The notes under the pieces: generated by a model
Databases searched by the model: none
What the model saw: only the letters and a program-made list of their open reading frames with translations
Told to the model about the DNA's origin: nothing
Source of the DNA: Flavobacteriales bacterium
GTDB taxonomy: Bacteria > Bacteroidota > Bacteroidia > Flavobacteriales_D > Crocinitomicaceae
NCBI GenBank assembly: GCA_947497485.1
Contig: CANMHB010000009.1
Span: 1-64,000, forward strand
Reading direction: 5' to 3'
Length of the DNA stretch: 64,000 bases
Translations under genes and position numbers: made by a program
Part shown: piece after piece, positions 8,401 through 52,263 of the stretch
Layout of the letters: each line of letters begins with the position of its first letter
How positions within the stretch are numbered: the first letter of the stretch is position 1

Positions 8401-8410
8401 AATTATTAAA

Positions 8411-8447: not shown

Positions 8448-8463
8448 AGTTAACTCAAAAAAC

Positions 8464-9630: not shown

Positions 9631-9645
9631 AATTAATGGTTTTAG

Positions 9646-9666: not shown

Positions 9667-9668
9667 TT

Positions 9669-9698: not shown

Positions 9699-9770
9699 AA
9701 AATATTTAGAAAATTTAATTTTTGTTTTTCAAAAAAGTATTCAATATTGCATCAAATTTTACATCGAAAA

Positions 9771-9802
9771 TTTGGAATTTACACCTACTTAGTGTATTTT
9801 TG
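9771..9802 (+). promoter_or_regulatory. Putative zwf promoter
   Basis: TTTG (9771-9774), a 20-base spacer, then TATTTTTG (9795-9802): a full match to the Bacteroidota housekeeping promoter. Transcription would start near 9809, leaving a very short leader before the ATG at 9818. The box overlaps operator-like repeat copy 2. Confidence 0.65.
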
Positions 9803-9806
9803 ACAC
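9785..9806 (+). promoter_or_regulatory. Operator-like repeat, copy 2
   Basis: CTACTTAGTG followed by TATTTTTGACAC covers the -7 box of zwf. It repeats the core of 9646-9660 and is flanked by small GTGT/ACAC inverted elements. A regulator bound here could control the Entner-Doudoroff and starch operons together; no such regulator is encoded nearby. Confidence 0.4.
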
Positions 9807-9817
9807 AAACTTAATTA

Positions 9818-11302
9818 ATGCAAACAAAAAAGAAATCAAAACACACAGAAGTTTTCGAACCATTTAACATCATCGTTTTTGGTGGTGATGGTGATCTCGC
9901 ATTGAGAAAAATTTATCCAGCACTATTTCATCGACAAATTGATGGTCAATTATTATGCGAATACAATATCGTTGCAATTACTCGAAAAAACCCAAAAGAT
10001 TCATCATTTTTTGATGACTTAACTAAATTCTTGAAGGAAAGTACAAATGAACTTGATATAGACAAAGATATTCATGAGTTCTCATCCAAAATTCAGTTGA
10101 TTGAAGCACCTGAGGCATCCGTTGAAGGCTATAAAAACTTAAGCGAATACGCCTCAAAATACCCAAATTATCAAAATATTTTCTACTTCTCGACTCCGTC
10201 TTCTGCTTTCGGTCCTATTTCAAAAGCACTAAAAGAATCCGGCTTGGTAAACAAAAAAAGTAAGGTTGTACTTGAAAAACCATTGGGCTATAGCTTGGAA
10301 TCATCAAAAAGCATTAACGAAGAGATTACGAAAACATTTACCGAACAACAAATCTATCGAATCGACCACTACCTTGGAAAAGAGACGGTTCAAAACCTTA
10401 TGGTCTTGCGTTTTGCAAACAATCTATTTGAGCGCGCTTGGGACTCAGAGCACATAGACAATATTCAAATTACGGTATCAGAAAGTTTGGGCGTTGAAAA
10501 AAGAGCTTCCTACTATGATAACAGCGGAGCGTTACTCGATATGGTTCAAAATCACTTGTTGCAACTACTTTGTTTGGTAGCAATGGAACCTCCTCATACA
10601 CTTGAAGCAGAAGAAGTGAGAAATGAAAAACTGAAGGTTCTTCGAGCTTTGCGTTTATTTAACAAGAAAACTGTTCAATCGGATACGGTAAAGGGTCAGT
10701 ATACCCGCGGTTTTGCTAACGGAAAAGAAGTTCAATCCTATTTAGAAGACATCGAAAAATTTAATTCCAAAACAGAAACTTTTGTCGCGATAAAAACTTA
10801 TGTCGACAACTGGAGATGGAAAGAAGTGCCATTCTACTTGCGAACTGGAAAACGTATGTTGAAACGCTATTCTGAAATTGTGATTAACTTCAAGGAAGTT
10901 CGACATAACATATTTCCTTCGAAAGAAAAATTGAATAACAATAAGTTAATCATTCGCTTGCAACCTGAAGAACGAATCGAACTTGTTCAGATGACGAAAA
11001 TCCCAGGGCCAGGTGGATATCGTTACAAACCAATTGCTCTGAAATTAGATTACTTAGATTCCTTCAAAGAACGATTTCCTGAAGCTTACGAACGCCTTAT
11101 CATTGATGTCATTCGTGGAAACCAAACCTTGTTTATGAGTCAAAATGAACTTGACGCTGCATGGACTTGGATTGAATCAATCACTTCAAATTGGAAAGCT
11201 AGTGGTCAGACAAATATTCTCTACGAAGCTGGAACTTGGGGTCCTGGTGATGATATTTTAGATGAAGGGAGCACGTGGATCACAAAAACTTGGAAAGAAT
11301 AA
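9818..11302 (+). CDS. zwf: Glucose-6-phosphate 1-dehydrogenase
   Basis: 494 aa, the normal length. It oxidises glucose 6-phosphate to 6-phosphogluconolactone with NADP, the first step of the Entner-Doudoroff and oxidative pentose routes. Visible are the nucleotide-binding motif VFGGDGDLALRKIYPALF (usual form G-A-S-G-D-L), VLEKPLGYSLE, and the active-site signature RIDHYLGKETVQNLMVLRFAN containing the catalytic His. The ATG at 9818 fits the promoter at 9771-9802. It is the first of four overlapping or tightly spaced genes, zwf-pgl-edd-eda. Confidence 0.95.
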   Translation: MQTKKKSKHTEVFEPFNIIVFGGDGDLALRKIYPALFHRQIDGQLLCEYNIVAITRKNPKDSSFFDDLTKFLKESTNELDIDKDIHEFSSKIQLIEAPEASVEGYKNLSEYASKYPNYQNIFYFSTPSSAFGPISKALKESGLVNKKSKVVLEKPLGYSLESSKSINEEITKTFTEQQIYRIDHYLGKETVQNLMVLRFANNLFERAWDSEHIDNIQITVSESLGVEKRASYYDNSGALLDMVQNHLLQLLCLVAMEPPHTLEAEEVRNEKLKVLRALRLFNKKTVQSDTVKGQYTRGFANGKEVQSYLEDIEKFNSKTETFVAIKTYVDNWRWKEVPFYLRTGKRMLKRYSEIVINFKEVRHNIFPSKEKLNNNKLIIRLQPEERIELVQMTKIPGPGGYRYKPIALKLDYLDSFKERFPEAYERLIIDVIRGNQTLFMSQNELDAAWTWIESITSNWKASGQTNILYEAGTWGPGDDILDEGSTWITKTWKE

Positions 11303-35187: not shown

Positions 35188-36579
35188 TTAATTAAATAAT
35201 TGAGCCATAGCAAATTGCATGGTTAGAAATGCTTGTTGATTTTTTGCAATGCATTCAATAAACTTTAGTTTTGATTGAATGTAAGCGGTTTCACGTGCAT
35301 TGATTAGAAACAAGGAACTCTCTCCTATTTCAAACATCATAATTTCGGCATCCAAAAGTCTTTTCGTGTCATCTACCGTTTTGCGATATATTTCCAACTG
35401 GTTTACCGAATTTTGTAGATCAATAAAAGCATTTTGGATTTTAGAAAGCAAATAAGCTCGGTTGTTTTCAAAATTTAGTTTTTCATTTTGCAATTTAATT
35501 CCTGCTAATTGATAATCACCACGCTCCTTTCTAAGAAAAACGGGCATTTCAAAATTAACTCCCCATTTATAATTATTTACACTGAACTGATTGAATGGAT
35601 TGTAGTTAATTGGCTCAGTTAAAAAATTGTAATTAAGGTCTAATTTCGGTTTCAACTGCTCTTTTTTCAATCGCTGATCAATTTCCAAACCTTTAATTTT
35701 AAAATTGGTAATCTGAAGATACGGATGGTTGCTTAATGCCGAATCAATCATCGACTGAGCTAATTCCAATTGAATTTTAACTCCAACACTGTTACTTGAA
35801 ACTGGTTTAGTAAGGCTATCTAATTCCAATGGAGTTAAGTTTTCTTCCCAAAGAAAAGAAGCCAACTTGTTGCTGGTTCCTTGTTGCTCTACCTCAGCAC
35901 CGCGAAATAGCGCTTCCCGATTTTGAACTTGAATTTTTGCCTCCACACTATCAATAAAAGGCCTGTCTCCTAATATAGCTGATTGCTTAACCGCTTCAAA
36001 CCGAATTTTAGCTAACTCAAGGGCTTCAGCTAGAACAACTCTGGAATTATGGGCAAGAAACCAATTCCAATAGGAATAACCCGCTTCATATAAAAGTTCA
36101 TTCAATTGTAATTTTCTTTCATAAACGGTACTTTCTTGATAGACTTTTGCTTTAAATAATTCGGCCCTTCTTTCATCTATAAATAAACCTTTTCCTAAAG
36201 TAATGGATGCACCTCCATACCACAAACCTCCGCTCGGTGACTTGGCTTGATTATCAATATAAACGCCTCGATTATTTTCAAAACCAGTTTTAATTTCAAG
36301 TCCATACCAAGTTGGAATCTTGAGGCCGGCATCTAGCAAACTATAATATTGATAAGAATTATAGTATTTCTGGTCAAGCGAGTTATAAGCCTTCGGATCA
36401 AAACTTCCTTTCGCTTTCAGAACGCCTACACGACCAATTTCCAATTCCAAGTTAGCTTGTTTAGCCAACGGATGATTTTTAATGACAAGCTGATAAAATG
36501 TTTGATCCGAAAACGTTCGTTGTGCGGTAATTGGTACCGTTGAGACAAGAAGAAAGAAAATAACTAGTCTCCAAATCAT
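35188..36579 (-). CDS. TolC-like outer-membrane efflux protein
   Basis: 463 aa with a signal peptide (LLVSTVPITAQ, about residue 19). The outer membrane efflux protein pattern is two long heptad-rich helical regions (about 150-230 and 350-450) with short beta segments. It should form the outer-membrane duct for the HlyD/ABC partners encoded just upstream; its ATG overlaps the HlyD stop by 4 bases. Confidence 0.85.
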   Translation of the reverse strand: MIWRLVIFFLLVSTVPITAQRTFSDQTFYQLVIKNHPLAKQANLELEIGRVGVLKAKGSFDPKAYNSLDQKYYNSYQYYSLLDAGLKIPTWYGLEIKTGFENNRGVYIDNQAKSPSGGLWYGGASITLGKGLFIDERRAELFKAKVYQESTVYERKLQLNELLYEAGYSYWNWFLAHNSRVVLAEALELAKIRFEAVKQSAILGDRPFIDSVEAKIQVQNREALFRGAEVEQQGTSNKLASFLWEENLTPLELDSLTKPVSSNSVGVKIQLELAQSMIDSALSNHPYLQITNFKIKGLEIDQRLKKEQLKPKLDLNYNFLTEPINYNPFNQFSVNNYKWGVNFEMPVFLRKERGDYQLAGIKLQNEKLNFENNRAYLLSKIQNAFIDLQNSVNQLEIYRKTVDDTKRLLDAEIMMFEIGESSLFLINARETAYIQSKLKFIECIAKNQQAFLTMQFAMAQLFN

Positions 36580-37928
36580 TTCTTGGACTTTTTAACAGGT
36601 TCTTTTTCGCTTTTCTCATAAAAATCTGGCGGGAACCCATTTACTACTCGCCATAGTTCATAGCCGATTGGAACGTCATTTAAAAGAATCATGGATTTTG
36701 TACCACCACCAACGCGAAGTTGTTTCGGCCATTTGCGATCTTTTTTATCAGGAGCAATTAGAACCCGGAATGTGCCATCATCACTTGTAAAGTTGTCAAT
36801 AGCAAAAACTTCACCTCCGAAAGTTCCATAGCTGGTATTTGGCCATCCTGAAAAGACGATTGCCGGCCAACCGTCGAATTGAATTCGCACTTTTTGACCT
36901 TTTTGAACCAAAGGTAAGTCAACGGGACGAATATACATTTCAATAGCCATGTCGTATAGTGAAGGCATAATTGTGGCAATCGGTTCACCTTCCTTTATAG
37001 TTTCACCGATACCGCTAGATAATACTTTGGTAACAATTCCATCTTGTGGAGCTAAAATGTAATACATTCCATTTCGAATCGAATAGTTAGCCACTTGCGT
37101 TTGAAGTTTGGTCACATCCACTTCAGCATCATACATGCTTGAAAGGGCTTCAAATTTGTCTGATTCAGCTTTTGAAACTTCATCACGGTACTTAGCTTCT
37201 ACAGAATTGTACTCAACTTTGAGATCAATTAAATCATTCTTCGTTTGAAGCAATTTTTGTTGCGCGTTAATTAAATTGGCCTGAGCTCTTTGTAAACTTA
37301 GTTTTCGGGTTTCAAGATCCGTTTGAGACTTCACATCAGCTTTAACTAATTTCTCCATACGCTCATATTGGTCTTCTGCAACGCGATAATTTACCTGGGC
37401 TGTCTGAACCTCCATGCTGTCCGCCTTCAACTTAAGTCGAGCCTGTTGCAATTTAATTTTAGCTTGTTGAAGTTTAAGTCTTCCCGTTTCACTTAAAGCG
37501 TCAATCCGTGCGTCCAATGATTGAACCTTATCACTGTATGAAACGACAGAAAGTTCCTTGTTTTTCAACTGCCGTTGCGTTCGATTTACTAACTGAGGAT
37601 CAAAATAATCCTGCTTAATCTCAGAAATGTAAAGAATGGTGTCTCCTTTTTTAACTGGATCACCATCTTTCACAAACCACTTTTCAATTTTCCCCGAAAT
37701 AACGGTATTAATCGTTTGTGGTCGTTGTTCTGGACGTAAGGTTACAAGTTTCCCTTTTGATGAGATATTTTGTGTCCAAGGAAGTAACATTATGATTAAT
37801 ATTAATCCGAATAAGATGTAAATTGTTCGCAACATTAGCTTCGAGGTATTCTGAATTTCGACGCGCCGAATTGCACTAAAATCCTTTTTATTGGATGGAT
37901 ATCTATTTTGAGGTGATAAGTTTAACAT
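36576..37928 (-). CDS. HlyD-family membrane-fusion adaptor
   Basis: 450 aa. One N-terminal membrane helix (TIYILFGLILIIMLLPW, about 34-50). A split lipoyl/biotinyl-like domain follows (ISGKIEKWFVKDGDPVKKGD and later YYILAPQDGIVTKVL), flanking a long alpha-hairpin (about 130-275, rich in Q/K/L heptads), then beta-barrel sequence. Adaptors of this type join an inner-membrane ABC protein to a TolC duct. It lies 2 bases after the ABC gene and overlaps the TolC gene. Confidence 0.9.
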   Translation of the reverse strand: MLNLSPQNRYPSNKKDFSAIRRVEIQNTSKLMLRTIYILFGLILIIMLLPWTQNISSKGKLVTLRPEQRPQTINTVISGKIEKWFVKDGDPVKKGDTILYISEIKQDYFDPQLVNRTQRQLKNKELSVVSYSDKVQSLDARIDALSETGRLKLQQAKIKLQQARLKLKADSMEVQTAQVNYRVAEDQYERMEKLVKADVKSQTDLETRKLSLQRAQANLINAQQKLLQTKNDLIDLKVEYNSVEAKYRDEVSKAESDKFEALSSMYDAEVDVTKLQTQVANYSIRNGMYYILAPQDGIVTKVLSSGIGETIKEGEPIATIMPSLYDMAIEMYIRPVDLPLVQKGQKVRIQFDGWPAIVFSGWPNTSYGTFGGEVFAIDNFTSDDGTFRVLIAPDKKDRKWPKQLRVGGGTKSMILLNDVPIGYELWRVVNGFPPDFYEKSEKEPVKKSKK

Positions 37929-37930
37929 TA

Positions 37931-39613
37931 TTACCGTTTTTTAAATTCGTTGTAGTTTCCTTCAAAAATTATTTTTCCACCTTTTATCTCGATAATTCGA
38001 TCGGATATCTGATGAATTTCATCTTCAAAACTGGACATTATTATGGTTGACTTTCCAATGGAACGAATTGTTTGAGCTATGAAGCTGCTTTGTTCAGAAT
38101 TCATTCCTGAAGTTGGATCCTCCAGTAATAAGAGAGAAGGATTGGTTATAAATGCCCTAGCCAATAAAATTCGAGTCGCAATATCACTTGGCAAAACATT
38201 TCTTTCTGGATTAATAATGGCATTAAACTTATCATTAATTTGCTCAACAAATTCGCTAAACTCTAATTTCACTGCTAATTCTGCAACCTGCTTTAAATCT
38301 ATTCCTTCACGTCCAAAAGCTACATTATCGTAAATCGAAGAATTCACAAATTGATCTTGTATTAAAAAAGTACCAATTTCTTCGCGCAATGAGTTTTTAC
38401 TTATATTACTTATCGGAATATCGTTTATAGAAATATTTCCCTTTTGAAAGTCATAAATCCCAGAAATCAAACTAAATAAAACATTAACCGATAAACTTGA
38501 ATCAGAAACAAAACAAATTCGTTCATTTCGATTAACTTCAAAACTAACCTCATTTAAAACCGGAAATTGAAATTGGGCAAATTGATAAGAAACATTGGAA
38601 ACATGCACGTGAACACCATCATTTGGTTTCTCAAACTCTACTCCATTCATTTGCTCAATCGGTAAATCAGTAATTTGACCAATTTTTTCGATTGCAGTAA
38701 GAACATCATAAAAAATTTCGAGGTTCAAAATCAATTTCTCAACCGAATTTAAAACCAATAAAATGATAATTTCTGCGGCGACAAATTGACCAATGTTCAT
38801 TTGCTGATTAAGAACCAAAACGCCTCCAACAATTAATAATGCTAGCGCGATTATAACCTTAAAAAGTATTAAAAATCCATATTGTTGAACCAGGACTTTG
38901 AAGTGCTTCTCGCGGGCAGACAAATAATTATTAACGAACGTATTCGTTTGGTTTAGATTGAACAAACTAAAACCAGCCATTTTAAAACTGACTCTCGCTT
39001 GGGTAATTTCATCCAACCAGTTGGCAATTTTGTATTTGAAGGTTGACTCCTCCATACTAGTCTGAAATCCCTTTTTTGCCGTTGAACGTATTATGAACGC
39101 CAAGATTACAATCAAGAATAAGCCAAGAAAAATGAAAAAACTATGGTAAAAAGACAACAATAATAACCCGAAGAAAATTTGCAAAATCGCTGATGTTGAA
39201 TCAATTAAAATTTTTGATAATCCCTTCTGAATATTGATGGTATCAAAAAATCGATTGGTAATTTCTGGCGTATATCGCTTTAATAAAACCTCCATCTTCA
39301 TTTTTGGAATGCGCTCTGAAAATTCAAAAGCCGATCTTGTAAAAATACGTTGTTGCAAATTCTCAGTAATTCGAAGCTGATAGATGTTAAGCATACCCGA
39401 AAAACCGATCGCGACCACCACTAATCCGACTAATACAAACCAAGAAGTACTAACTTGACCGAGCTGGATGAAGTTTATAATCATCTGAATTCCGAGTGGA
39501 AAACCAAGGGCAAGAAGCCCGCTAAAAATTGCGAAAATGTAAACATTCCGAATTTCCTTTCGATCCGGAGCAAGAAGTGACCAAAAACGATTTATTACTG
39601 ATATTTTACTCAT
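37931..39613 (-). CDS. ABC half-transporter with degenerate nucleotide-binding site
   Basis: 560 aa. An exporter-type membrane domain with about 5-6 helices (20-300) is followed by an ABC domain (about 335-560). The Walker A position, where G-x-x-G-x-G-K-S/T is required, reads FVSDSSLSVNVLF, so the lysine and glycines are lost. The signature LSGGQ is replaced by LPSDI (before ATRILLARAF), and the H-loop His by Ser (TIIMSSFEDE). The Q-loop (FLIQDQF) and Walker B (SLLLLEDPTSG) persist. ATP hydrolysis by a homodimer therefore looks impossible. The frame is intact and the operon (tetR-ABC-HlyD-TolC) is tightly packed, so it is probably functional in another way. Confidence 0.9.
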   Translation of the reverse strand: MSKISVINRFWSLLAPDRKEIRNVYIFAIFSGLLALGFPLGIQMIINFIQLGQVSTSWFVLVGLVVVAIGFSGMLNIYQLRITENLQQRIFTRSAFEFSERIPKMKMEVLLKRYTPEITNRFFDTINIQKGLSKILIDSTSAILQIFFGLLLLSFYHSFFIFLGLFLIVILAFIIRSTAKKGFQTSMEESTFKYKIANWLDEITQARVSFKMAGFSLFNLNQTNTFVNNYLSAREKHFKVLVQQYGFLILFKVIIALALLIVGGVLVLNQQMNIGQFVAAEIIILLVLNSVEKLILNLEIFYDVLTAIEKIGQITDLPIEQMNGVEFEKPNDGVHVHVSNVSYQFAQFQFPVLNEVSFEVNRNERICFVSDSSLSVNVLFSLISGIYDFQKGNISINDIPISNISKNSLREEIGTFLIQDQFVNSSIYDNVAFGREGIDLKQVAELAVKLEFSEFVEQINDKFNAIINPERNVLPSDIATRILLARAFITNPSLLLLEDPTSGMNSEQSSFIAQTIRSIGKSTIIMSSFEDEIHQISDRIIEIKGGKIIFEGNYNEFKKR

Positions 39614-40286
39614 TCATCAATACTTTAAAAACTAAATCCATATAAAATTGCTCAACTTGATCTTGACCTTCCTTGAAATTGGTTAAACCGGGCAGGTGAG
39701 CTTCAAAAAAACGCTGCTGGTTACTCCCTTCTATGAGACTTGAAACAAGCATATTCGGATATGGATACTTAGGGTTTATTTCTTTTATAATCTCAACCAC
39801 ACGTTTAACAATGGATTTATAAACAGAAAACACACCCTCCTTGTTTTCTGCATCCACCTCTTTGGTCATCATGACTTTAATCGATTCATTCATTGCCAAT
39901 TTTTTCAACGGAACCTCAACTGAATTTATAGCCTCCGAATCCCCATCAGGAATTGAGGATAGAATATGAATTGCCTTAGTTAATCGTGCTCGCGGATCGG
40001 AAATATTTGCCGTTTCAAATACAAGTCGATATTCCACACAACACCAATACCAATTAATTAGATAAAATAGCAGCTTTTGTTTGCTTTCAAAATAGCGATA
40101 TATGGATGCCTCTGTGGAGTTTATTTCTATCGCTAATTTCTTAAAGGTGAAATGCTCAAAGCCCAACTCATCAATCAGATTGATGCTTTTGTAGATTATC
40201 CGTTCGCCCAGTTCAGAGGAATGTGGATCCTTCAAATAAAGCGAAGAGTTAACCTGAATTTTAAAATGGCTAAAGAATGATTTCAC
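39606..40286 (-). CDS. TetR-family regulator of the ABC/HlyD/TolC operon
   Basis: 226 aa. The N-terminal helix-turn-helix spans about 27-75 (INLIDELGFEHFTFKKLAIE, INSTEASIYRYFESKQKLLF), in which the usual A-x-x-x-G-V-S is altered but the Y-x-Y/H-F segment is kept. The C-terminal ligand domain is unrecognised. It overlaps the ABC gene by 8 bases and begins the operon. A 15-base palindrome 32 bases upstream is a likely autoregulatory operator. Confidence 0.85.
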   Translation of the reverse strand: MKSFFSHFKIQVNSSLYLKDPHSSELGERIIYKSINLIDELGFEHFTFKKLAIEINSTEASIYRYFESKQKLLFYLINWYWCCVEYRLVFETANISDPRARLTKAIHILSSIPDGDSEAINSVEVPLKKLAMNESIKVMMTKEVDAENKEGVFSVYKSIVKRVVEIIKEINPKYPYPNMLVSSLIEGSNQQRFFEAHLPGLTNFKEGQDQVEQFYMDLVFKVLMNE

Positions 40287-42749: not shown

Positions 42750-43922
42750 ATGTCAGAAGAAATAAAAAAATCAGTCTCAAATGTTGAATACGGACTTGAG
42801 AAAATATTTGAAGGTGCCGAAGATTTCCTTCCACTTTTAGGAACAGATTACGTTGAATTTTATGTTGGAAATGCGAAACAATCCGCGCATTTTTACAAAA
42901 CAGCATTCGGATTTCAATCACACGCATATGCAGGTTTGGAAACAGGTTTGAAGGATCGTGTTTCGTACGTTTTGAAACAAGATAAAATTCGCTTGGTTTT
43001 AACTACCGCTTTGAAAAGTGATTCTCCAATTGGAGAGCATGTTAAAAAACATGGTGACGGTGTTAAAGTTATTGCGCTATGGGTTGATGATGCGAAAAAA
43101 TCGTGGGAGGAAACCACAAAACGTGGAGCAAAATCTTTCATGGAACCGACAGTAGAAAAAGATGAAAACGGCGAAGTGGTTCGCGCTGGAATTTACACCT
43201 ATGGAGAAACCGTTCACATGTTTGTTGAGCGCAAAAATTACAACGGACCATTTTTACCAGGTTTCCAAAATTGGGAATCTGATTACAATCCTGCTCCGAC
43301 AGGTTTAAAATTCATCGACCACATGGTAGGAAATGTGGGATGGGGAGAAATGGACACGTGGGTAAAATGGTACGAAGATGTGATGGGATTCGTTAACTTC
43401 TTGTCTTTTGACGACAAACAAATTCATACAGAATATTCTGCCTTGATGTCGAAAGTAATGTCCAATGGAAACGGAAGAATTAAATTCCCAATCAACGAAC
43501 CGGCTGAAGGCAAGAAACGTTCTCAAATTGAAGAATATTTGGACTTCTACGAAGGACCGGGAGCTCAGCATATCGCCGTTGCAACAGACAATATCATTGA
43601 AACGGTTAAACAACTAAGAGCACGTGGCGTTGAGTTCCTTTCTGCTCCTCCAAAAACATACTACGACGAAATTCCAGGACGTCTTGGAGAACACATGAGT
43701 ATGATGAAAGAGGATATCAACGAATTGATGTCACTAGCCATTTTAGTAGATGCTGACGAAGAAGGTTATTTACTTCAAATATTCACCAAGCCAGTTGAAG
43801 ACCGCCCTACCCTTTTCTTTGAAATCATTCAGCGAATGGGAGCCAAAGGCTTTGGTGCCGGAAACTTCAAGGCGCTCTTCGAATCCATAGAAAGAGAGCA
43901 AGAAAAGCGAGGAACGCTTTAG
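42750..43922 (+). CDS. hppD: 4-hydroxyphenylpyruvate dioxygenase
   Basis: 390 aa. Makes homogentisate from 4-hydroxyphenylpyruvate, the step before HmgA. Two VOC repeats are present: DYVEFYVGNAKQSAHFYKTA and KFIDHMVGNVGWGEMDTWVK. The iron ligands fall in FIDHMVGNV (His), GAQHIAVATDN (His) and LFFEIIQRMGAKGFGAGNFK (Glu), and the conserved C-terminal helix ALFESIEREQEKRGTL is intact. Length and motifs are normal. Confidence 0.96.
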   Translation: MSEEIKKSVSNVEYGLEKIFEGAEDFLPLLGTDYVEFYVGNAKQSAHFYKTAFGFQSHAYAGLETGLKDRVSYVLKQDKIRLVLTTALKSDSPIGEHVKKHGDGVKVIALWVDDAKKSWEETTKRGAKSFMEPTVEKDENGEVVRAGIYTYGETVHMFVERKNYNGPFLPGFQNWESDYNPAPTGLKFIDHMVGNVGWGEMDTWVKWYEDVMGFVNFLSFDDKQIHTEYSALMSKVMSNGNGRIKFPINEPAEGKKRSQIEEYLDFYEGPGAQHIAVATDNIIETVKQLRARGVEFLSAPPKTYYDEIPGRLGEHMSMMKEDINELMSLAILVDADEEGYLLQIFTKPVEDRPTLFFEIIQRMGAKGFGAGNFKALFESIEREQEKRGTL

Positions 43923-44074: not shown

Positions 44075-44281
44075 ATGGAACCATTAATTCATACATTTTC
44101 TAAAAATAGAACCATGCCCAAGGAATTTATTGAAATGGAGGACAAAAATAACGTTTATTACGATCCAATAAAACAAACATCAGAATTACAAATGGGATCT
44201 TATAATACGGCTTCACTTCGCTCAACAAATGGCACTCAAGTAAAAAATGAAGCTGATCGGGTAATGGATGATCATGATTGA
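44075..44281 (+). CDS. Candidate graspetide precursor peptide
   Basis: 68 aa from the ATG at 44075; a TTG three bases earlier is in frame. No signal peptide. The N-terminal half looks like a leader (MEPLIHTFSKNRTMPKEFIE, then NNVYYDP). The C-terminal half has a block of hydroxyl residues (Ser42, Thr45, Ser47, Ser50, Thr51, Thr54) followed by Lys57 and a block of acids (Glu59, Asp61, Asp65, Asp66, Asp68). ATP-grasp ligases of graspetides join exactly such Ser/Thr/Lys side chains to Glu/Asp. It is the first gene of the operon, 18 bases before the TerB-like gene. No precursor family is recognised, so the call rests on size, layout and context. Confidence 0.65.
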   Translation: MEPLIHTFSKNRTMPKEFIEMEDKNNVYYDPIKQTSELQMGSYNTASLRSTNGTQVKNEADRVMDDHD

Positions 44282-44299
44282 TGTTAATTAATTTAAATT

Positions 44300-44731
44300 A
44301 TGAGTAACTTTTTTAAAAATTATCCTATTGTTGATGCAACTCGTGAAGATGCTCTTGCTTATGTAAGCATTCTCTTTTCAATTGCCGCTTGCGATGAATT
44401 AGATTCTAAAGAGGCTCAATCAATAAGATTGTTGGTCGAGAATAATGAATGGGATTTAAAAATATTTGAAGAAGCAAAGAATAATAAAAATTTTTCATTG
44501 GATACAATTTCTTTATCCTCAATATTGATTGAAGTTGGAGCGCCATACTTATTGAGAGATTTGTGTGCTATTGCCTATTTATCGAATGGTTTTTCGGATA
44601 ATGAAGAGTTTAAAATTAATTTAGTTAGGGAAAAGCTAGGTGTTTCGATAGATTTATACTTAAAAATTAAAAAATCTGTAATCAGTCATATCGAGTCGAT
44701 TAAAATTTGGTCTGAGGTAATTTCTGTTTAA
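44300..44731 (+). CDS. TerB-like helical protein in the graspetide operon
   Basis: 143 aa, fully helical in appearance. The order DALAYVSILFSIAACDELDS-K-E-A-Q, then a long middle, then LLRDLCAIAYLSNGFSDNEE and LGVSIDLYLKIKKSV resembles the TerB/DjlA fold. In that fold two helix pairs each carry an A-C/A-D/S-x-E acidic turn that can bind metal. I cannot assign a reaction. Between a precursor and its ATP-grasp ligase it could be a partner, chaperone or scaffold of the maturation enzyme. It is separated from the ATP-grasp gene by 2 bases. Confidence 0.6.
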   Translation: MSNFFKNYPIVDATREDALAYVSILFSIAACDELDSKEAQSIRLLVENNEWDLKIFEEAKNNKNFSLDTISLSSILIEVGAPYLLRDLCAIAYLSNGFSDNEEFKINLVREKLGVSIDLYLKIKKSVISHIESIKIWSEVISV

Positions 44732-44733
44732 TT

Positions 44734-45714
44734 TTGGGTAAAATTCTAATAGTTTCAAATATAATAGATCCGCATTCTGATGCTGTAATTAATGAAATTA
44801 TTAACAAAGATTCCATTTTTAGATTTAACACCGATGAACTGCTAAATGAATTTAGTTTAGAATTCTTTACGGATGAAAATATAAATTCGAGTAAATTGAT
44901 AAACCCAATCGGCAGATCACTAAATATAGAAGAAGTATCAACTATTTACTACCGACGTCCTGAACAGCCCAAAATAAATATTTCTTCACCTTTCAATAAA
45001 GTTTTAATAAGTGAGGCTTGGTCTAGTTTTTTTCATTTATTATATAGTAATTATAATAAACAATGGTTGGGGCATCCTCATCTTGATAAGTATGCGTCTT
45101 CGAGGGTTGTTCAATTAAATACCGCTAATAAAGTTGGATGGAAAATTCCCCCAACTTTAATTTCTAAAGATCCAAAAAAAATTAGGCAATTTTCCAATCA
45201 GCATAAAGTTTTAGCAATAAAACCATTAGGAGAAAAAGGTTCGGAAATTGATGGTCAATGGACTCCATATTTTACATCTTTAGTAAACTCTGATGAAATT
45301 ATTGCAAAGTCCGACAATGAAATTGGTGCGACATACAACTATCTTCAAGCTTATATCGAAAAAAATAATGAATGGCGCATAACCGTAATAGGAGATGAAG
45401 TGTTCCCATGCGTTATTTATTCTCAGGAAAATGAAGACAGTAAAATTGACTGGCGTACCGCTCATTTCAATTCAGTACGACATGAAAAAGCAGAAATTTC
45501 AAATAAATTCAAAAACCAACTTATTCAATACTTAAATTACCTTAAGATTCCTTTTGGAGCATTTGATTTTATATTAACACCTGAAAATGAATTTGTTTTT
45601 CTTGAATGTAATCCAAATGGTCAATGGTTATGGATAGAGGATTTAACAGGATTTAAAATATCAAAATCTATTGCGAATTGGTTAGAAAAAATGAATAATG
45701 AAAGAACTTCCTGA
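44734..45714 (+). CDS. ATP-grasp peptide ligase of graspetide (MvdC/MvdD) type
   Basis: 326 aa from a TTG start at 44734, 2 bases after the TerB-like stop. No ATG lies near, and the fold begins at once with GKILIVSN. Features of microviridin-type ligases are visible: YYRRPEQP, DKYASSRVVQL, VLAIKPLGEKGS (ATP Lys), LQAYIEKNNEWRITVIGDEV, GAFDFILTPENEFVFLECNP and NGQWLWIEDLTG (Mg/ATP acids and the hallmark N-x-N-G-Q-W). Such enzymes phosphorylate an Asp or Glu side chain and close ester or amide macrocycles on a leader-bound peptide. Only one ligase is present. It overlaps the next gene by 17 bases. Confidence 0.88.
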   Translation: MGKILIVSNIIDPHSDAVINEIINKDSIFRFNTDELLNEFSLEFFTDENINSSKLINPIGRSLNIEEVSTIYYRRPEQPKINISSPFNKVLISEAWSSFFHLLYSNYNKQWLGHPHLDKYASSRVVQLNTANKVGWKIPPTLISKDPKKIRQFSNQHKVLAIKPLGEKGSEIDGQWTPYFTSLVNSDEIIAKSDNEIGATYNYLQAYIEKNNEWRITVIGDEVFPCVIYSQENEDSKIDWRTAHFNSVRHEKAEISNKFKNQLIQYLNYLKIPFGAFDFILTPENEFVFLECNPNGQWLWIEDLTGFKISKSIANWLEKMNNERTS

Positions 45715-46699
45715 CATTATAAAATGTAATAGAAATAATTTTTTATTCAAAAAAGTACGCAAAGATGACATTCATTTAATTTGGGAATCTGCACCTTTAG
45801 AAGAATTGTTCAAAGTACTAGGACGAGACTGCCTGAATGTTAATGATCTGGCTGATACTATGCAATTGGATTGGACTATTTGGTATTTTTCAATTGACGA
45901 AAAAGGACATTCATATGGATTGCTAAGAGTTGTTCCCGAAATGGATCTAACATACAGTTTGCATGGAATCGGATGGATCCAAAAAAATAAGTATCCCAGA
46001 GTTTTCGTTTTGTCATGGTATGCTTTTCACCATTACTTATTCAATAAAGGAATTGATGTATTAAGAACCTATTGTGACTCATCGAATATAAATGCCATTA
46101 GATTTGACATTAAAACAGGCTATGTTTACGAATATTGCATGCCAGCATTAGTAAATAACAAAATAATACTTCATCTTAAACTTGTTAAAGAGAACTTTTA
46201 TCTGTTATTGGCAAGAAAATCATTTTATTTTGAATTAGAATCATATTCTTTTAATTTTTTGCCAAATGTAGAAGTTGTAAAGGGTTTAGCTAAAACTAAT
46301 ATATCAAAGAAAATTTCCTTTAATATTCAAGTTCTTGACAATGAAAAAGAAAGCCTATTTAAGAAACAATTTTACGATTCAATTTTTATTCATTTCACTT
46401 ACTTGATTCCACCTCCTATTTTTTATTCGATTAAATTGAATAATAAGACTATTTGTTATTTATTAATTTCTGTAATAAACGACTTTAAGAAAATTATTAT
46501 TTTTAATTCTTCAAATTTATCACTAGATATTTATCTTGATTTTATTGAATTCTTAAGATTGAAATTTACTTTAAAATCAAAAGATGTAATTATTATGGAA
46601 GATCACTTACATTCGAAACCATTGAAAGATTCTTTATCTATAAATTTTAAATTTGCAGGCAGTCATATGAATCCACAAGGTAATTATTGGATCGTTTAG
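45698..46699 (+). CDS. GNAT-like protein of the graspetide operon
   Basis: 333 aa, no signal peptide or membrane helix. The N-terminal half (about 14-160) has the feel of a GNAT acetyltransferase: a hydrophobic beta core (GLLRVVPEMDLTYSLHGIGW), a long helix (VFVLSWYAFHHYLFNKGI) and a cysteine-aspartate-serine-x-N-x-x-A segment (TYCDSSNINAIRFDIKTGYV) like the N-x-x-S/A-x-x-x-x-x-K-x-G-F end of GNATs. The second half may be a diverged copy. Microviridin clusters also encode a GNAT that acetylates the peptide, which supports the reading. It is markedly AT-rich and ends the operon. Confidence 0.5.
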   Translation: MKELPDIIKCNRNNFLFKKVRKDDIHLIWESAPLEELFKVLGRDCLNVNDLADTMQLDWTIWYFSIDEKGHSYGLLRVVPEMDLTYSLHGIGWIQKNKYPRVFVLSWYAFHHYLFNKGIDVLRTYCDSSNINAIRFDIKTGYVYEYCMPALVNNKIILHLKLVKENFYLLLARKSFYFELESYSFNFLPNVEVVKGLAKTNISKKISFNIQVLDNEKESLFKKQFYDSIFIHFTYLIPPPIFYSIKLNNKTICYLLISVINDFKKIIIFNSSNLSLDIYLDFIEFLRLKFTLKSKDVIIMEDHLHSKPLKDSLSINFKFAGSHMNPQGNYWIV

Positions 46700-46776
46700 A
46701 TAATTAGAGTTAACTCGAATTACTATTGCTTTCGAAACTTAGATTAAATGCTAAGAATATTTTTCCTAGTCTTTGA

Positions 46777-47145
46777 GTCAGATCATCGAGCAAAAAGGAT
46801 CGCAAGGTAACAATTAGTATTAAAATCATTGAAATGCTTCGTGAATATTACAAAGCTTACAAACCAAAAACGTGGTTGTTTGAAGGTCAATTTCCAAATA
46901 CACGCTATTCTGAAAAAAGTCTAGAAAATGTTTTAAAACAAAGCTTGAATAAAGCTAAAATTTCAAAGAAAGTAAGTTTACATTGGTTGCGCCATAGTTA
47001 TGCCACACACTTGCTGGAAAATGGCACAGATTTACGCTACATTCAAGAATTATTAGGTCACTCAAGTTCTAGGACGACGGAAATTTATACACACGTGAGT
47101 ACACGGAATTTACAACAAATTCGTTCCCCATTTGATGATTTATAA
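46777..47145 (+). pseudogene. 5'-truncated tyrosine recombinase (integrase C-terminus)
   Basis: The frame opens directly after a TGA at 46774-46776 and reads [20 protein letters not shown], then the catalytic core [40 protein letters not shown], and the end [11 protein letters not shown]. The His-x-x-Arg, His/Gly-His and nucleophile Tyr of the tyrosine-recombinase box 2 are intact. The arm-binding domain and the first catalytic Arg region are missing, and no start fits. It is XerD/integrase-like; the extra helix that marks classical IntI is absent. It sits just downstream of the graspetide operon and upstream of cassette leader copy B. Confidence 0.85.
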
Positions 47146-47237
47146 AAAGTTTTTCTATTTTTATAAAACCTTCATCAATGAGGCATAGCGAACAATTGTA
47201 TGTTGTGTTTCAGAAAATTTATGAGGGTTATAAGTAA
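47146..47237 (+). other. attI-like candidate between recombinase and cassette leader
   Basis: 92 bases from the recombinase stop to the GTTATGGGC boundary at 47238. It contains GCATAGCGAACAATTGTATG with a central ACAATTGT palindrome and ends in GGGTTATAAGTAA before the boundary. If the recombinase was an integron-type integrase, this is where its primary site would lie. Only position and the boundary sequence support this. Confidence 0.35.
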
Positions 47238-47398
47238 GTTATGGGCAAGTTTAAAACAACATAGCGGTTCAATACAGGCTGACCACCTAAAGTGACAAAA
47301 AAAGTGGAGACAAGAAAACCACTCTAAAAACAGGGAGTAATCTGAAAATCCATAAGAGTTAGAACGAAATTTAAAAAATAACAAAATGAAAAAGTTAA
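47238..47398 (+). repeat. Cassette leader repeat, copy B
   Basis: Starts at GTTATGGGC and ends just past the ATG of the gene at 47386. It is closely similar to 883-1046 with small indels (shared GGCTGACCACCTAAAGTGAC, AGTGGAGACAAGAAA, AATCTGAAAATC). Both copies begin at the same boundary sequence and both lead into a signal-peptide gene, but the coding regions are unrelated. No CCCATAAC box closes this unit downstream. Confidence 0.7.
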
Positions 47399-47805
47399 CA
47401 ATCATTTTAATAATGGCTTTTCAAGTAATTAAAGCTTTAAGTCAAGTCCCAGCACCTTATTATAATCTGCATGATGCATGCGAAACAAATTCAGAGAAAT
47501 GTTGGAAATTAGGTTTATGTTGGAATGAAGAATTGATGGATTATTCTTCGATTCATGAATCCGAAATGTTATTCAGTTATTTTCCACAGAAAAATCCTCT
47601 ATGTATAGATAGCACCACTTATAAATTGACGCCTTCAGATCGAGATGGTGAATTTGCAATCTGGCAATATAAAAATGCCAACATCAGTATTCAAGTGAGA
47701 ATGCGACAGGTAGAATCACTTTTTGGTTATCAGCTTTTTGATGTCAGGTTAAAAAACACGCTAGTGAATGATTGTCAACCATTAACTTTTGTTTGGGAAT
47801 ATTGA
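47386..47805 (+). CDS. Small secreted protein behind cassette leader B
   Basis: 139 aa with a signal peptide (MKKLTIILIMAFQVIKALSQ). The mature part has several cysteines (ACETNSEKCWKLGLCW, PLCIDS, VNDCQPL), which suggest disulfides, and ends in aromatic strands. I do not recognise a family. Its leader is the repeated element at 47238-47398, and a terminator follows at 47855-47876, so it is a single-gene unit within the accessory island. The parallel with the cassette gene at 1034 suggests that both arrived by the same mobilisation route. Confidence 0.65.
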   Translation: MKKLTIILIMAFQVIKALSQVPAPYYNLHDACETNSEKCWKLGLCWNEELMDYSSIHESEMLFSYFPQKNPLCIDSTTYKLTPSDRDGEFAIWQYKNANISIQVRMRQVESLFGYQLFDVRLKNTLVNDCQPLTFVWEY

Positions 47806-47854
47806 AACCAAAAGTTAACAACATTAAAACTTAAAAAATCCTCAAATCAAAATC

Positions 47855-47876
47855 GAGGAGTAGACTTCTCTTTTTT
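47855..47876 (+). terminator. Rho-independent terminator
   Basis: GAGGAG/CTTCTC stem (one G-T pair) with TAGA loop, directly followed by six Ts (47871-47876). It lies 50 bases after the stop of the secreted-protein gene and before the DUF262 pair, whose start is at 48094. The rest of this 288-base gap is AT-rich without further structure. Confidence 0.75.
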
Positions 47877-48093
47877 ATAATTTGTAATATGAAATTAATT
47901 TTCTTAGATTGAACGTTTTTCACATAAGTAGATACCCTATAAGAATTAACATAAAAACAAAAATCAACCGTAAATCCAAATTATCTCTTTAATATGGTTT
48001 TAACAAAATAAAAGTTAGACTGCAACTAAAAACTATAAAGCAACTCATAATAGCTCACTTAATACCGATATTCGCAATATTATAAAATTAGAA

Positions 48094-49419
48094 ATGGAGG
48101 AGATCATTATAGAAAGTCTTACGTTGAAAGAATTGTTTGAGAAACAACACGCACTTGTTATACCTGAATATCAAAGACCCTATGTATGGACACCAAACGA
48201 AATAAACAAACTTTTAGCACAAATCAAACAACATCATAACAGAACCGACGAAAAGCCCTTGTTCTACTTAGGAAGTATTGTATTTTATCAAAACTCTAAA
48301 AATGAATTGGAAATTATAGACGGTCAACAACGTCTTACGAGTTTGCAAATATTATCACTAATCCATTCAAAGTCTGATTTTGGTATAAAATACAACCACC
48401 CTATTTCATTGAAAAATATCAAGGATAATTATAATTATTATTCAACCAACGACTTTGAAGTCTTTGAATTGGACAACATTAATGTAACTATTGTAGTTGT
48501 TGACAATGAAGATTTAGCATATAGTTTCTTTGAAACATTAAATACTGGTGGTAAACGTCTTTCTGGTACGGATATATTAAAGGCACACCACCTTAGAAGC
48601 ATAACAAAGTTTTCAGATCGAAATAAATTCGCTTATAACTGGGAGGAAAAACAAAAGAATTTAGAAGCAGTAAATAAACTTTTAGTAAAGGCTCGTCGGA
48701 TTAATTATATAAAGCCAAACAATATACCAGATAAATTTGCAAGTATAGAAAACTGGAAAGTTGTCTTAACCGAAGAATTTGCAGAAAATATTGGTAGAGA
48801 AAAGAAAGATGTAGGTTTCTCCTTAGTTGAAATTGAAGAGAACACACATCGCATTATTTCAGCGAAATACTCAATTAGACAACCTTTAAACGAAGGAAAA
48901 AATTACATCAATTATCTAATGAGTTTTACTAACTATTATAACGAAATTTTTGAAACAAAAGATAGAAAGGACTTCTATTCAAATTTTAACAATGTAATGA
49001 TTGATCAAATTGATGGAACTGTGGATTTGAGAAGTTTTTATCAATTATGTCTTATATGCTTTGCCGATGTGTTCGGTAAAAACAATCTTTTAGAATTTTC
49101 ACTTTGGATATTCAGACACATTTTTAGTTTACGATTAAACGAACAAAGCCGCATTTATGAGCCAACTGTAAGAAATCATATTGATAACACAAAAATTATA
49201 GAACGCATACTTCATGCTTACAACTATGAGGAAATCATTTCTTATTTGAAAACGTATAGAACTACCGAAATTAAAATTAATGGAAGTCAAGTAAAGCAAA
49301 GATTTTTTAATAAGTGTTGTGATTTTTTTTCATTAAATAATCCAAATGAAGAGAATTTTGATGAAATGCTTAAAATTAAATTTGAGGAAATTGTAAGAAA
49401 GTACAGAGATGAAATTTGA
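48094..49419 (+). CDS. DUF262 protein (GmrSD-like, no HNH)
   Basis: 441 aa. The N-terminal DUF262 domain (about 5-140) has the ParB/Srx-like motifs VIPEYQRPYVW, FYLGSIVFY and IIDGQQRLTSLQ. This domain binds and hydrolyses nucleotides in GmrS-type proteins (DGQQR). The C-terminal 250 residues are helical, with no H-N-H or DUF1524 nuclease motif. It overlaps the next gene by 11 bases, and that gene carries both DUF262 and a nuclease. A two-subunit modification-dependent restriction or other anti-phage system is the most likely role (inference from the GmrSD, BrxU and SspE families). Confidence 0.85.
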   Translation: MEEIIIESLTLKELFEKQHALVIPEYQRPYVWTPNEINKLLAQIKQHHNRTDEKPLFYLGSIVFYQNSKNELEIIDGQQRLTSLQILSLIHSKSDFGIKYNHPISLKNIKDNYNYYSTNDFEVFELDNINVTIVVVDNEDLAYSFFETLNTGGKRLSGTDILKAHHLRSITKFSDRNKFAYNWEEKQKNLEAVNKLLVKARRINYIKPNNIPDKFASIENWKVVLTEEFAENIGREKKDVGFSLVEIEENTHRIISAKYSIRQPLNEGKNYINYLMSFTNYYNEIFETKDRKDFYSNFNNVMIDQIDGTVDLRSFYQLCLICFADVFGKNNLLEFSLWIFRHIFSLRLNEQSRIYEPTVRNHIDNTKIIERILHAYNYEEIISYLKTYRTTEIKINGSQVKQRFFNKCCDFFSLNNPNEENFDEMLKIKFEEIVRKYRDEI

Positions 49420-51346
49420 AACTTACAAAAAAACGATTAAAGATATCGTTCAAGACAACTATGAGTTTATTATTCCTGTTTATCAACGAGCTTATGTTTG
49501 GGATGATGAAGAAATTAAAAAGTTATTAGGTGACCTATTTAATACGTTTAAAATCAGAAATTCTGAAAATGTAAATTACTTTATAGGGAACACTTATGTA
49601 ATTAGGTCATCAAATGAACTTCGAGAAAATCAATTTGAATTGATAGATGGGCAACAACGTTTTACTACATTTTGGCTGATTGCTTACGCTTTCAAGATAT
49701 TAAATATCGAAACGGAAATAACAGACTATTTGGAAATATCTTATCCCAATAGACCAAAAGATATTCGTTTTGATTTTGACATTCGAATCGAAGTCGCGCA
49801 TTACTTAAAAGGATTACTAGACAATAGTTCATACTTGAAATATTCAGATGTTAGTGGAAAGGAGTTTTTAAAATATATCTCTAAAGCTGTTGAAACAATA
49901 AAACACTTTATAACATCGGAAATCAAGGATAATCAGCGCACGGATTTTGGAAATTACATCTACAGAAACGTACAATTTGTTTTTAATGTCGCTCCAAAAA
50001 ATACAGATTTGAATTCTTTGTTTACTGCATTAGGGACATCAGGCATACAACTTCAACAATCTGATATTTTAAAAGCTCGATTACTTGAAAAGCTGAATAA
50101 AGGTTCACGAATTAAATATTCAAAAATTTGGGAAGCCTGTGAAGACATGAGCAACTATTTTGAAAAAAATGTTGCTGACGTTTTTAATATTGAAAGATCA
50201 ACCATCAAACCAATAGATTTTAAATTTTTCGATGAAGCTTATTTTGGAATAAATGACGAATCAAAATTATCTGAAAAAAATGCTCATGCAAAAACAATAT
50301 CTGAAATTGTAAACGAGCAAGAAATTGTTGTCAAAATTGATTCAACAAGCTTAGACAAAAGTTCTAAATGCCGTTCCATAATCTCCTTTAATATTTTGTT
50401 ATTACACACCTACCGAATATTCAACTTACAAAAAGATCGCGATAAATTTGAACATAACATAGATTCCAAAAATTTACTCTCAACAATAAAACTTGATACA
50501 TTTCGAACTTCTGAAGAAACTGGGTACTTTTTTGAATTATTATGGAAGGTTCGTTACACATTCGACAAACACGTTGTTAAATGGCGATTTGAAGAAGATA
50601 ATGACAATGATGAAAAGTTACTATTGACAGATATATCGACAAGCAGAAGTAACGAGAAAAACTATTTTTCGAGGACTAATTTACCTTATTCACCTCTTCA
50701 AATGCTTCAATCTGTTTTGTATTTCACAGGTGGATTTACACAACAATACTGGTTGACACCCTTTCTTTATTTCTTACTCGAAACAGAAAATCATAACGAA
50801 AAACTGATACTTGAAGAATTAGAAAAAATTGACAATTTAATGTTGCCGGGAGATAAAAAAGAAATTTCTTTGGAGCTGATGACGCGAGAGAAACGAAATG
50901 AAAAAATTGAGTTAAAAGTTTTAAATATTTTATTAGAACCCAATGGAACCGGTTTTAATCATTATTGGTTCTACAAATTAGAATATTTACTTTGGAAAAA
51001 ATGGGACAAAAACGACTTTAAAGTAAAACATTTCCGAATAACCTCTAAGAATTCCATAGAGCACGTTTTTCCACAAATCCATGAATTTGGGAGCCAATTA
51101 ACCGACTCTGAGTTCGATTGGCTTAACAGCTTTGGTAATTTAGGATTGCTTTCTGTAGGAGAAAATTCGTCATACAATAATCAAGATGTTAAGAAGAAGA
51201 AAGTTGATTTCGATCATAAATTAACGTATGATTCATTAAAACTAGCACTAATATATTCCTCAAATGATATAGATTATTGGGGAATTGAAAACATCAAAAA
51301 ACACCAAGAAGAAATGATCGAAACGTTAAAAAACCATTACAAGTAA
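49409..51346 (+). CDS. DUF262-DUF1524 putative nuclease
   Basis: 645 aa. DUF262 domain (about 8-130: IIPVYQRAYVWDDEEIKKLL, YFIGNTYVI, LIDGQQRFTTFW), a long helical middle, and a C-terminal DUF1524 domain with the HNH-type core NSIEHVFPQ (about 549-557) and WLNSFGNLGLLSVGENSSYN (about 570-590). This is the architecture of GmrSD, BrxU and SspE, in which NTP hydrolysis drives cleavage of modified or foreign DNA. It pairs with the nuclease-less DUF262 gene just upstream. Confidence 0.88.
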   Translation: MKFETYKKTIKDIVQDNYEFIIPVYQRAYVWDDEEIKKLLGDLFNTFKIRNSENVNYFIGNTYVIRSSNELRENQFELIDGQQRFTTFWLIAYAFKILNIETEITDYLEISYPNRPKDIRFDFDIRIEVAHYLKGLLDNSSYLKYSDVSGKEFLKYISKAVETIKHFITSEIKDNQRTDFGNYIYRNVQFVFNVAPKNTDLNSLFTALGTSGIQLQQSDILKARLLEKLNKGSRIKYSKIWEACEDMSNYFEKNVADVFNIERSTIKPIDFKFFDEAYFGINDESKLSEKNAHAKTISEIVNEQEIVVKIDSTSLDKSSKCRSIISFNILLLHTYRIFNLQKDRDKFEHNIDSKNLLSTIKLDTFRTSEETGYFFELLWKVRYTFDKHVVKWRFEEDNDNDEKLLLTDISTSRSNEKNYFSRTNLPYSPLQMLQSVLYFTGGFTQQYWLTPFLYFLLETENHNEKLILEELEKIDNLMLPGDKKEISLELMTREKRNEKIELKVLNILLEPNGTGFNHYWFYKLEYLLWKKWDKNDFKVKHFRITSKNSIEHVFPQIHEFGSQLTDSEFDWLNSFGNLGLLSVGENSSYNNQDVKKKKVDFDHKLTYDSLKLALIYSSNDIDYWGIENIKKHQEEMIETLKNHYK

Positions 51347-51402: not shown

Positions 51403-52263
51403 TTACAACCCCAATTCCTTCTCCCAATACTCATTCAACAAAACAATCAATTTTCGTGACATATTGTTAAAAAAGCGCTTGGTGCGGTAACCGCCAATCC
51501 AGTTGATTCCGCGTATGGCATTGGTGATAAAAATCTCATCGGCTGCCAGTAAGTTTTGAGGAAGAATCGCACATTCATAAACTTTGATTCCGTGACTTAT
51601 TGCCAAATTGATAATTTGCATTCGCATGGTTCCGGCCAAACAGCCTTCATCTAATCCTGGTGTGTAAAGCACGCCATTACTCACAACAAAAACATTGCAA
51701 CTGGAAGTTTCTAAAATATTGCCACGATCATTACTCAAAAAAACATCGTCTAATCCCTTTTCCTTGGCTGAAAGCGCCGCCATTACGTAGGTGAGGCCTG
51801 CCTTGGTTTTATAATTCGAAAGGAAATTCTTTTGAAGTTTGATGTCTTGATAAATATCAACCTCCAATCCTTTTGCATTCAATTCGAAATGATTGACTTC
51901 ATAAGGATAAACTTCAATATAAAACGAAGATTCGTTGGAGTCTGGTAAATAAGCTCCGCCTGTAACTCGGTCAAGGGACATTCGACATCTCCCTCCCTCC
52001 TCGATCTCAGATTTTTTAATCAACTCCGTTATTTTATCCCGAAAAAACTCAGTTGTATAATAGGAAGGAGTGCGCATCTTAATGACTTTCGCTCCATCCA
52101 ACATACGTTTTATGTGATTTTCCAGATTTAACGGTTGTCCACCCATAATTCGGATGCTTTCAAAAACACCATCACCATATAAATGTCCTCTGTTCCCTGG
52201 ATGAATTGTTGGGGAGTCATTTGGTAAAATTGTACCGTTATTATTTACGTATAAAACTGCCAT
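51403..52263 (-). CDS. Class IV aminotransferase (PabC/IlvE-like)
   Basis: 286 aa, PLP-dependent fold type IV. Visible are YGDGVFESIRIMGGQPLNLE, NYKTKAGLTYVMAALSAKEK (internal-aldimine Lys), DRGNILETSSCNVFVV, LDEGCLAGTMRMQII and ADEIFITNAIRGINWIGGYR. These proteins are aminodeoxychorismate lyases (folate), branched-chain aminotransferases or D-amino-acid aminotransferases. The short length and absence of branched-chain markers favour the PabC-like group, without certainty. The rhomboid gene lies 2 bases upstream. Confidence 0.88.
   Translation of the reverse strand: MAVLYVNNNGTILPNDSPTIHPGNRGHLYGDGVFESIRIMGGQPLNLENHIKRMLDGAKVIKMRTPSYYTTEFFRDKITELIKKSEIEEGGRCRMSLDRVTGGAYLPDSNESSFYIEVYPYEVNHFELNAKGLEVDIYQDIKLQKNFLSNYKTKAGLTYVMAALSAKEKGLDDVFLSNDRGNILETSSCNVFVVSNGVLYTPGLDEGCLAGTMRMQIINLAISHGIKVYECAILPQNLLAADEIFITNAIRGINWIGGYRTKRFFNNMSRKLIVLLNEYWEKELGL

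Follow-up and report, generated by a model that had tools for sequence, protein, structure and literature searches.

A probable graspetide cluster from a Bacteroidota bacterium with a TerB-fold protein encoded beside the ATP-grasp ligase

The four genes and their products

Within the window, that is, the whole stretch of 64,000 nucleotides that was analysed, a four-gene cluster of a Bacteroidota bacterium probably gives rise to a ring-linked peptide. All four frames lie on the plus strand, as an earlier note on this DNA had stated, and encode (i) a graspetide precursor of 68 residues counted from its ATG (44075–44281), (ii) a TerB-fold protein of 143 residues, here called type A, which is a candidate synthetase partner (44300–44731), (iii) a graspetide ATP-grasp ligase (synthetase) of 326 residues with a TTG start (44734–45714), and (iv) a GNAT-fold, acetyltransferase-like protein of 333 residues (45698–46699). 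The peptide gene is separated by 18 nt from the TerB-like gene, the ligase TTG lies 2 nt past the TerB-like stop, and the ligase and GNAT-like genes overlap by 17 nt. The order peptide, TerB, ligase, fourth gene recurs in locus L002 of a Flavobacteriales MAG, where a 65-residue peptide homologue sits at the same place, and in locus L047; a clear homologue of the fourth gene is found in L002 only, and that of L047 could not be aligned to the window’s by BLAST (best E 1.4). In all three of these type-A clusters the TerB stop is followed within 2 to 7 nt by the TTG at which the ligase begins (44734 in the window, 6001 in L002 and 5989 in L047), which suggests coupled translation of the ligase. 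Promoter and terminator scans of the window gave no excess over shuffled sequence; a Bacteroidota-type promoter pattern had no match before the peptide gene and one at the TerB–ligase joint (the window has 9 matches, where 4.7 are expected). None of the four genes matched an exporter or protease in Pfam or NCBIfam, in line with what had been said of the operon before.

The precursor combines a leader, MEPLIHTF (P-h-h-x2-h), and a YDPIKQ motif with a core that holds Thr45, Thr51, Thr54 and Lys57 followed by Glu59, Asp61, Asp65 and Asp66; the residues listed in the earlier note (Ser/Thr at 42–54, Lys57, acids at 59–68) are all correct. Two-sequence BLASTP aligns the peptide with its L002 counterpart at 32 identical positions out of 67 (E=8e-21), and the core residues named above are common to both, whereas Ser42, Ser47 and Ser50 are not shared. 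Since the homologue sits at the same place in L002, the peptide frame is more than a chance one. Iterated profile searches among the small ORFs of the retrieved loci gathered a precursor family of 46 ORFs (44 without two duplicate loci; 41 distinct), which is represented in 44 of the 45 ligase-group loci defined below, is absent only from L039, and has no member elsewhere in the fetched loci at E 1e-3. Conservation of the frame next to homologous ligases, which had been set beforehand as a test, is thus borne out, and one correction to the earlier note is that the peptide is not unique: it belongs to a family spread through Bacteroidota.

Leader, Y[DN]..Q and DD occur together in 39 of the 41 distinct peptides and in 5 of the 5804 remaining small ORFs from these loci, a contrast which describes the family rather than tests it, as the family was collected by similarity. 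The DD near the C-terminus is found in 41/41, the leader pattern is missing in L047, and Y..Q is missing in L028. MEPLIHTF, encoded beside the ligase, conforms to Phhx(1,2)h, and P-h-h-x-h is given in the main text of PMC8939145 as a signature of graspetide leaders. When loosened, the leader pattern occurs in 40/41 distinct family peptides and also in 1409/5804 other ORFs, and is therefore weak evidence on its own. The window precursor has no Pfam or NCBIfam match at E 1, and no cut-off is reached when it is scanned with five family members against Pfam or with six against NCBIfam; among the peptides scanned, only those of L033 and L047 give a weak score in the leader region with TIGR04186, a model named for a putative ATP-grasp-modified RiPP.

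The ligase contains the MvdD-type pre-ATP-grasp domain PF21068 (30.2 bits, cut-off 27), which assigns it to the graspetide ligases, as well as glutathione-synthetase (GSH-S) and RimK ATP-grasp domains above the Pfam cut-offs. Its four best NCBIfam models are TIGR04187, MvdC, MvdD and grasp-with-SPASM, all below their curated cut-offs: TIGR04187, the best, reaches 217 bits against 350, which does not place the ligase in that subfamily, and the others reach 159 of 425 (MvdC), 154 of 475 (MvdD) and 91 of 230 bits (TIGR04192). The closest PDB match is CdnC (7mgv, E=3.3e-37), a chryseoviridin ligase. The NPNGQWLW end motif noticed before is present. D239-W240-R241, K163, E291 and N293 are invariant in an alignment of the window ligase with 36 relatives at 41–64% identity (37 sequences). 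According to the main text of PMC13097080 a DFR motif is important in a graspetide ligase; we read DWR as its probable counterpart and K163, E291 and N293 as putative ATP-site residues, so that a D-(F/W)-R motif and the ATP site would both be in place. At E<=0.001 the ligase matches only itself in its own genome and 535 proteins overall; among the 120 matches listed are at least 15 full-length relatives at 59–64% and at least one at 55%. The earlier reading of the locus as a graspetide cluster is supported, and that the cluster would make a graspetide is, judged from sequence, close to certain.

The labels given before to the two remaining proteins fare differently by sequence and by fold. For the 143-residue protein the sequence gives weak support (Pfam TerB, PF05099: 14.7 of 24.4 bits, E=0.039, below the cut-off), and at the level of predicted fold it matches the TerB/COG3793 proteins (2ou3; PG1108, 2h5n). 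Likewise, the fourth protein has no GNAT match in Pfam, and its residues 2–177 align to GNATs by predicted fold. The CoA loop of GNATs reads (R/Q)xxGx(G/A); the window protein has, as read by eye, QKNKYP before helix 101–116, and the proteins P0126–P0129 lack the CoA-loop glycines as well.

TerB genes beside related ligases

The ligase group considered here is our own choice from the tree and unites the window’s 12-row set with a 43-row Bacteroidota set, both starred, the joining of which the tree leaves unresolved. Counts were taken from 83 loci after three duplicates had been dropped, leaving out six with less than 700 nt upstream. A TerB-like gene lies at most 725 nt upstream of the ligase on the same strand in 21 of 43 group loci (19 whole or split genes and two fragments) versus 0 of 34 other loci. 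Among the 34 are L063 and L073, partial Bacteroidales ligases that are off the tree and may belong to the group; moving them changes the counts to 21/45 versus 0/32. Depending on this placement, Fisher’s test gives P of 2.8e-7 or 1e-6 under an assumption of independent loci that is untrue here, seven type-B loci being near copies; about 11 lineages remain, which is our reading of the tree for the TerB-bearing loci. What had appeared as an unexpected oddity of one locus hence recurs in about half of a ligase group. The gene is on the ligase strand and directly upstream in every case; in the window, L002 and L047 the two genes are 2–7 nt apart. Together with the genes, their order and their conservation, this association is established by sequence and fold comparison.

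On the 45-row tree the TerB label changes 5 times, versus about 14 times for shuffled labels. Near the drawn (midpoint) root, TerB is present in the window, L002, L047, L006, L084 and L031 and not in L083, a distribution compatible either with an early association that was later lost in places or with recruitment on several occasions; the tree cannot choose between them because of long branches, those of L047, the window and L002 among them. No whole TerB gene is found in 24 of the 43 group loci (nothing detected in 22, fragments in L008 and L080), which keep the ligase and, except for L039, the precursor; TerB is therefore not strictly needed across the group. As background, 24 genomes (about 69 Mb) hold 43 Pfam TerB matches, a figure to which selection contributes, as 13 of the 24 were chosen for a TerB seen by a ligase and that copy is counted in 9 of the 13 (positions compared by hand). 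Six loci from the phylum search that by look hold other graspetide kinds (L095–L100) contain neither TerB nor a precursor-family member at E 1e-3; this accords with a tie of TerB and precursor to the group, without contributing a further positive case.

Taken unmodified, the Pfam TerB model scores above its cut-off for the proteins encoded next to the ligase in L012, L014, L016, L029 and L035, stays below it for those of the window, L002, L006 and L084 and for P0002 and P0003, and has no match in the L047 protein. The three TerB types show little likeness to one another (hhalign probabilities 25, 49 and 8%), although with some profiles weak matches to the other types arise (E 3.5e-4 to 7e-3). 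At E 1e-5 the type-A profile finds 3 of 395 class genomes, namely its own and two with weak matches (1.6e-7, 1.7e-7), in the 1.5-kb flanks of which no ligase was found. No TerB–ligase fusion was seen by eye among the ligase matches listed. TerC, TerD and other Ter genes are absent from the scanned neighbour genes of the window (35191–40286 and 44075–51343) and of the loci.

Several smaller observations concern the neighbourhoods of these ligases. Type-B TerB fragments lie in L008 (352–525) and L080 (5589–5738) where relatives carry the whole gene, and in L008 a PD-(D/E)XK-like ORF (59–568, below the Pfam cut-off) overlaps the site of the fragment. L014 carries a tandem pair of TerB genes before the precursor (4861–5725) and, by coordinates, a third, stop-bearing match just upstream. 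PD-(D/E)XK nuclease-like genes beside group ligases form two clusters (L008, L009, L010, L063, L073; and L017, L025, L032, L036); of L008, L010 and L036, which were scanned, only L036 passes the PDDEXK_4 cut-off. In L083, from a same-genus genome, the ligase is accompanied by genes with a weak, below-cut-off likeness to uracil-DNA glycosylase and for a pyroglutamyl-peptidase-like protein (353–1453 and 2786–3355). The cluster of L047, from Burkholderiales, is preceded by a weak vWA-domain match (below cut-off) and followed by a RyR-domain protein (3899–5134 and 8234–10072), flanks reminiscent of Ter-type conflict neighbourhoods.

Genomic setting and spread

G+C content is 34–40% in the 4 kb before 44 kb, 26–32% from 44 to 51 kb and 32–37% in the following 2 kb. 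The low-G+C interval holds the operon, a recombinase fragment and two GmrSD-type genes. The fragment, directly after the operon (46834–47145), is a C-terminal piece of 103 residues of a tyrosine recombinase resembling XerC/XerD or integron integrases; the two adjacent GmrSD/DUF262-type genes (48094–51346) both contain GmrSD_N, the second also GmrSD_C, and are likely a type IV restriction pair. HppD-like (42750–43922) and aminotransferase-like (51403–52263) genes flank the region, and each occurs in most of 41 same-genus genomes. Where positions were compared in these genomes, the flanking genes are not side by side, and a clean empty site was not found; four relatives, those with the most similar HppD of 37 others matching, part from the window at 43915–43921 and continue with other genes. 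On the minus strand, opposite to the operon and about 4 kb or more away, are OEP, HlyD-like, ABC transporter and TetR genes (35188–40286), of which the first three kinds (35188–39613) are the nearest exporter-like genes among those scanned and could possibly export the peptide.

The ligase has no other carrier among 200 family genomes at E<=1e-60, relatives in 5 of 399 order genomes (its own included) at 1e-40, and a close relative in its own genome only of 395 in the phylum search. An identical 400-base probe is common to a locus from a same-family genome and a Crocinitomix MAG (L085 and L031), which probably places the window in Crocinitomicaceae. The operon was likely acquired by transfer. 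Viral contigs yielded no relative of the ligase alignment or the GNAT-like protein, phage records none of the TerB-like protein, and plasmids only ligases below 60% identity (56 records, 35 of them from Streptomyces); there is thus no sign of a phage- or plasmid-borne cluster in these searches. At E 0.01, none of the TerB-like, ligase and GNAT-like proteins had a PADLOC match.

Interpretation and relation to known systems

Microviridin clusters carry a GNAT, and TxKxPSD is the microviridin core motif. The window cluster resembles the microviridin/chryseoviridin systems (MvdC/MvdD, CdnC) in its ligase homology to CdnC, in the MvdD pre-ATP-grasp domain and, as regards microviridin, in having a GNAT-fold protein. 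It differs in that its genome has one ligase, rather than the pair MvdC and MvdD, which stays below the cut-offs of both and is not an equivalog of either; TerB is present; and the precursor lacks TxKxPSD. The rosaritide cluster MirA/MirB/MirC, according to the main text of PMC13097080, is similar as a small cluster that joins a graspetide ligase to a conserved neighbouring partner protein, and MirB is labelled TIGR04187, the best model of the window ligase, which is below its cut-off. In that cluster, however, the partner MirC is a SurA-like protein with a PpiC isomerase annotation, and its N-domain bears a weak resemblance to an RRE, whereas the candidate partner in the window is TerB, and a peptidase-containing transporter is present and the core is unlike that of the window precursor. 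The same text describes the first demonstration, in 2026, of partner-dependent graspetide synthesis: MirC is required by MirB for ring formation and copurifies with it. The branch 5 grasp-with-SPASM loci described in the main text of PMC8939145 are likewise Bacteroidota graspetide loci with a small auxiliary, the LPL protein, proposed there as a PqqD-like helper. They differ from the window, where TIGR04192 stays at the score given above, none of the four operon genes matches a radical SAM family, and the Phhx(1,2)h motif, absent from branch 5 precursors, occurs in the leader. Compared with TerB/COG3793 proteins, which share its fold, the window protein is distinct in the position of its gene between those of a RiPP precursor and the cognate ligase, in falling below the Pfam cut-off, and in having no Ter genes among its scanned neighbours.

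The reading that we consider somewhat probable is that of a graspetide (ATP-grasp RiPP) cluster in which TerB is a dedicated partner of the ligase, the GNAT-fold protein acts last, and leader removal and export are provided elsewhere. As to the chemistry, the sites of ring formation and the part played by TerB, we infer the following. The ligase would bind the precursor leader and phosphorylate some of the carboxylate side chains of Glu59, Asp61, Asp65 and Asp66, close to the C-terminus, which would then be joined to Thr45, Thr51 and Thr54 (possibly Lys57) to give up to three rings with loss of one water each. The TerB-fold protein would be co-translated with the ligase and would hold or present the precursor or stabilise the ligase, much as MirC, a protein unrelated to it, serves MirB. 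The GNAT-fold protein might be a tailoring acetyltransferase or, as its CoA loop is degenerate, a binding protein, and genes outside the operon would remove the leader and export the product. The position and strand of TerB, its coupling and its group specificity are best explained by a direct role in synthesis, which is reasonably probable, a confidence tempered by the absence of TerB from over half of the group.

Three other accounts have to be weighed. It is rather unlikely that the cluster makes a graspetide and TerB serves self-protection or signalling, sensing the peptide, a metal or a nucleotide-like signal as proposed for Ter stress and phage-response systems. PMC7824862 describes TerB as a ligand-binding, possibly signal-sensing part of such systems, and the GmrSD genes just downstream of the operon, the weak vWA match (below cut-off) and RyR-domain gene around the L047 cluster, and the half of the group devoid of TerB would all suit this role; against it stand the constant position directly upstream on the ligase strand, only 2–7 nt away in the window, L002 and L047, and the lack of TerC, TerD or any other Ter gene among the neighbours scanned. 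A passenger role, with TerB a small gene that has been captured time and again at a variable site and has nothing to do with the peptide, could explain its divergent types, losses and fragments, and PD-(D/E)XK nuclease-like and other genes also recur near these ligases. We nevertheless find it quite improbable in view of the fixed place and strand, the 0/34 other versus 21/43 group loci, about 11 lineages, 5 label changes versus about 14 on shuffling, and a background that is low (43 Pfam TerB matches in 24 genomes, about 69 Mb) despite 13 of the 24 being TerB-selected. Finally, a RimK-type ligase that adds an amino acid or other group and forms no rings, leaving a conjugated peptide as the product, would agree with the RimK and GSH-S domains above cut-off; this is very improbable given that the best NCBIfam models are ribosomal-peptide maturases (TIGR04187, MvdC, MvdD, grasp-with-SPASM), the solved relatives are CdnC and other graspetide-type ligases, and the peptide has a donor–acceptor layout and the published leader signature.

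As a partner candidate in about 11 lineages, second to MirC and unrelated to it, TerB could account for ligases that seem inactive when expressed alone and would make some 45 loci accessible to expression. What the TerB fold does at the molecular level, which is unclear, would become testable in a two-protein assay, for which the TerB-less members are built-in controls. More tentatively, TerB domains may constitute a general class of peptide-handling modules for graspetide synthetases: stand-alone leader-binding or chaperone subunits, the counterpart of PqqD/RRE and MirC, which a set of ligases from Bacteroidota, with at least one from Burkholderiales, would have recruited. TerB would in that case have a definite biochemical function beyond the tellurite and phage-response operons.

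The kind of cluster is known, and the pairing with TerB is its new part: we did not find the pairing of TerB with a graspetide ligase, seen in some twenty other clusters, in searchable papers. No paper on graspetides with TerB or tellurite was found in the searchable literature, and supplements and subscription papers, including the 2020–2021 genome-mining surveys, may hold an entry. The main text of PMC8939145 mentions neither TerB nor tellurite and its Table 1 lists no TerB, and that of PMC13097080 contains neither ‘tellurit’ nor TerB. Among the matches listed, searches for TerB with RiPP and for tellurite resistance with ribosomally synthesized gave only unrelated titles, and a looser search gave no ‘tellurite resistance’. 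Co-mention of TerB and ATP-grasp does occur in the searchable literature and includes work on jumbo phages.
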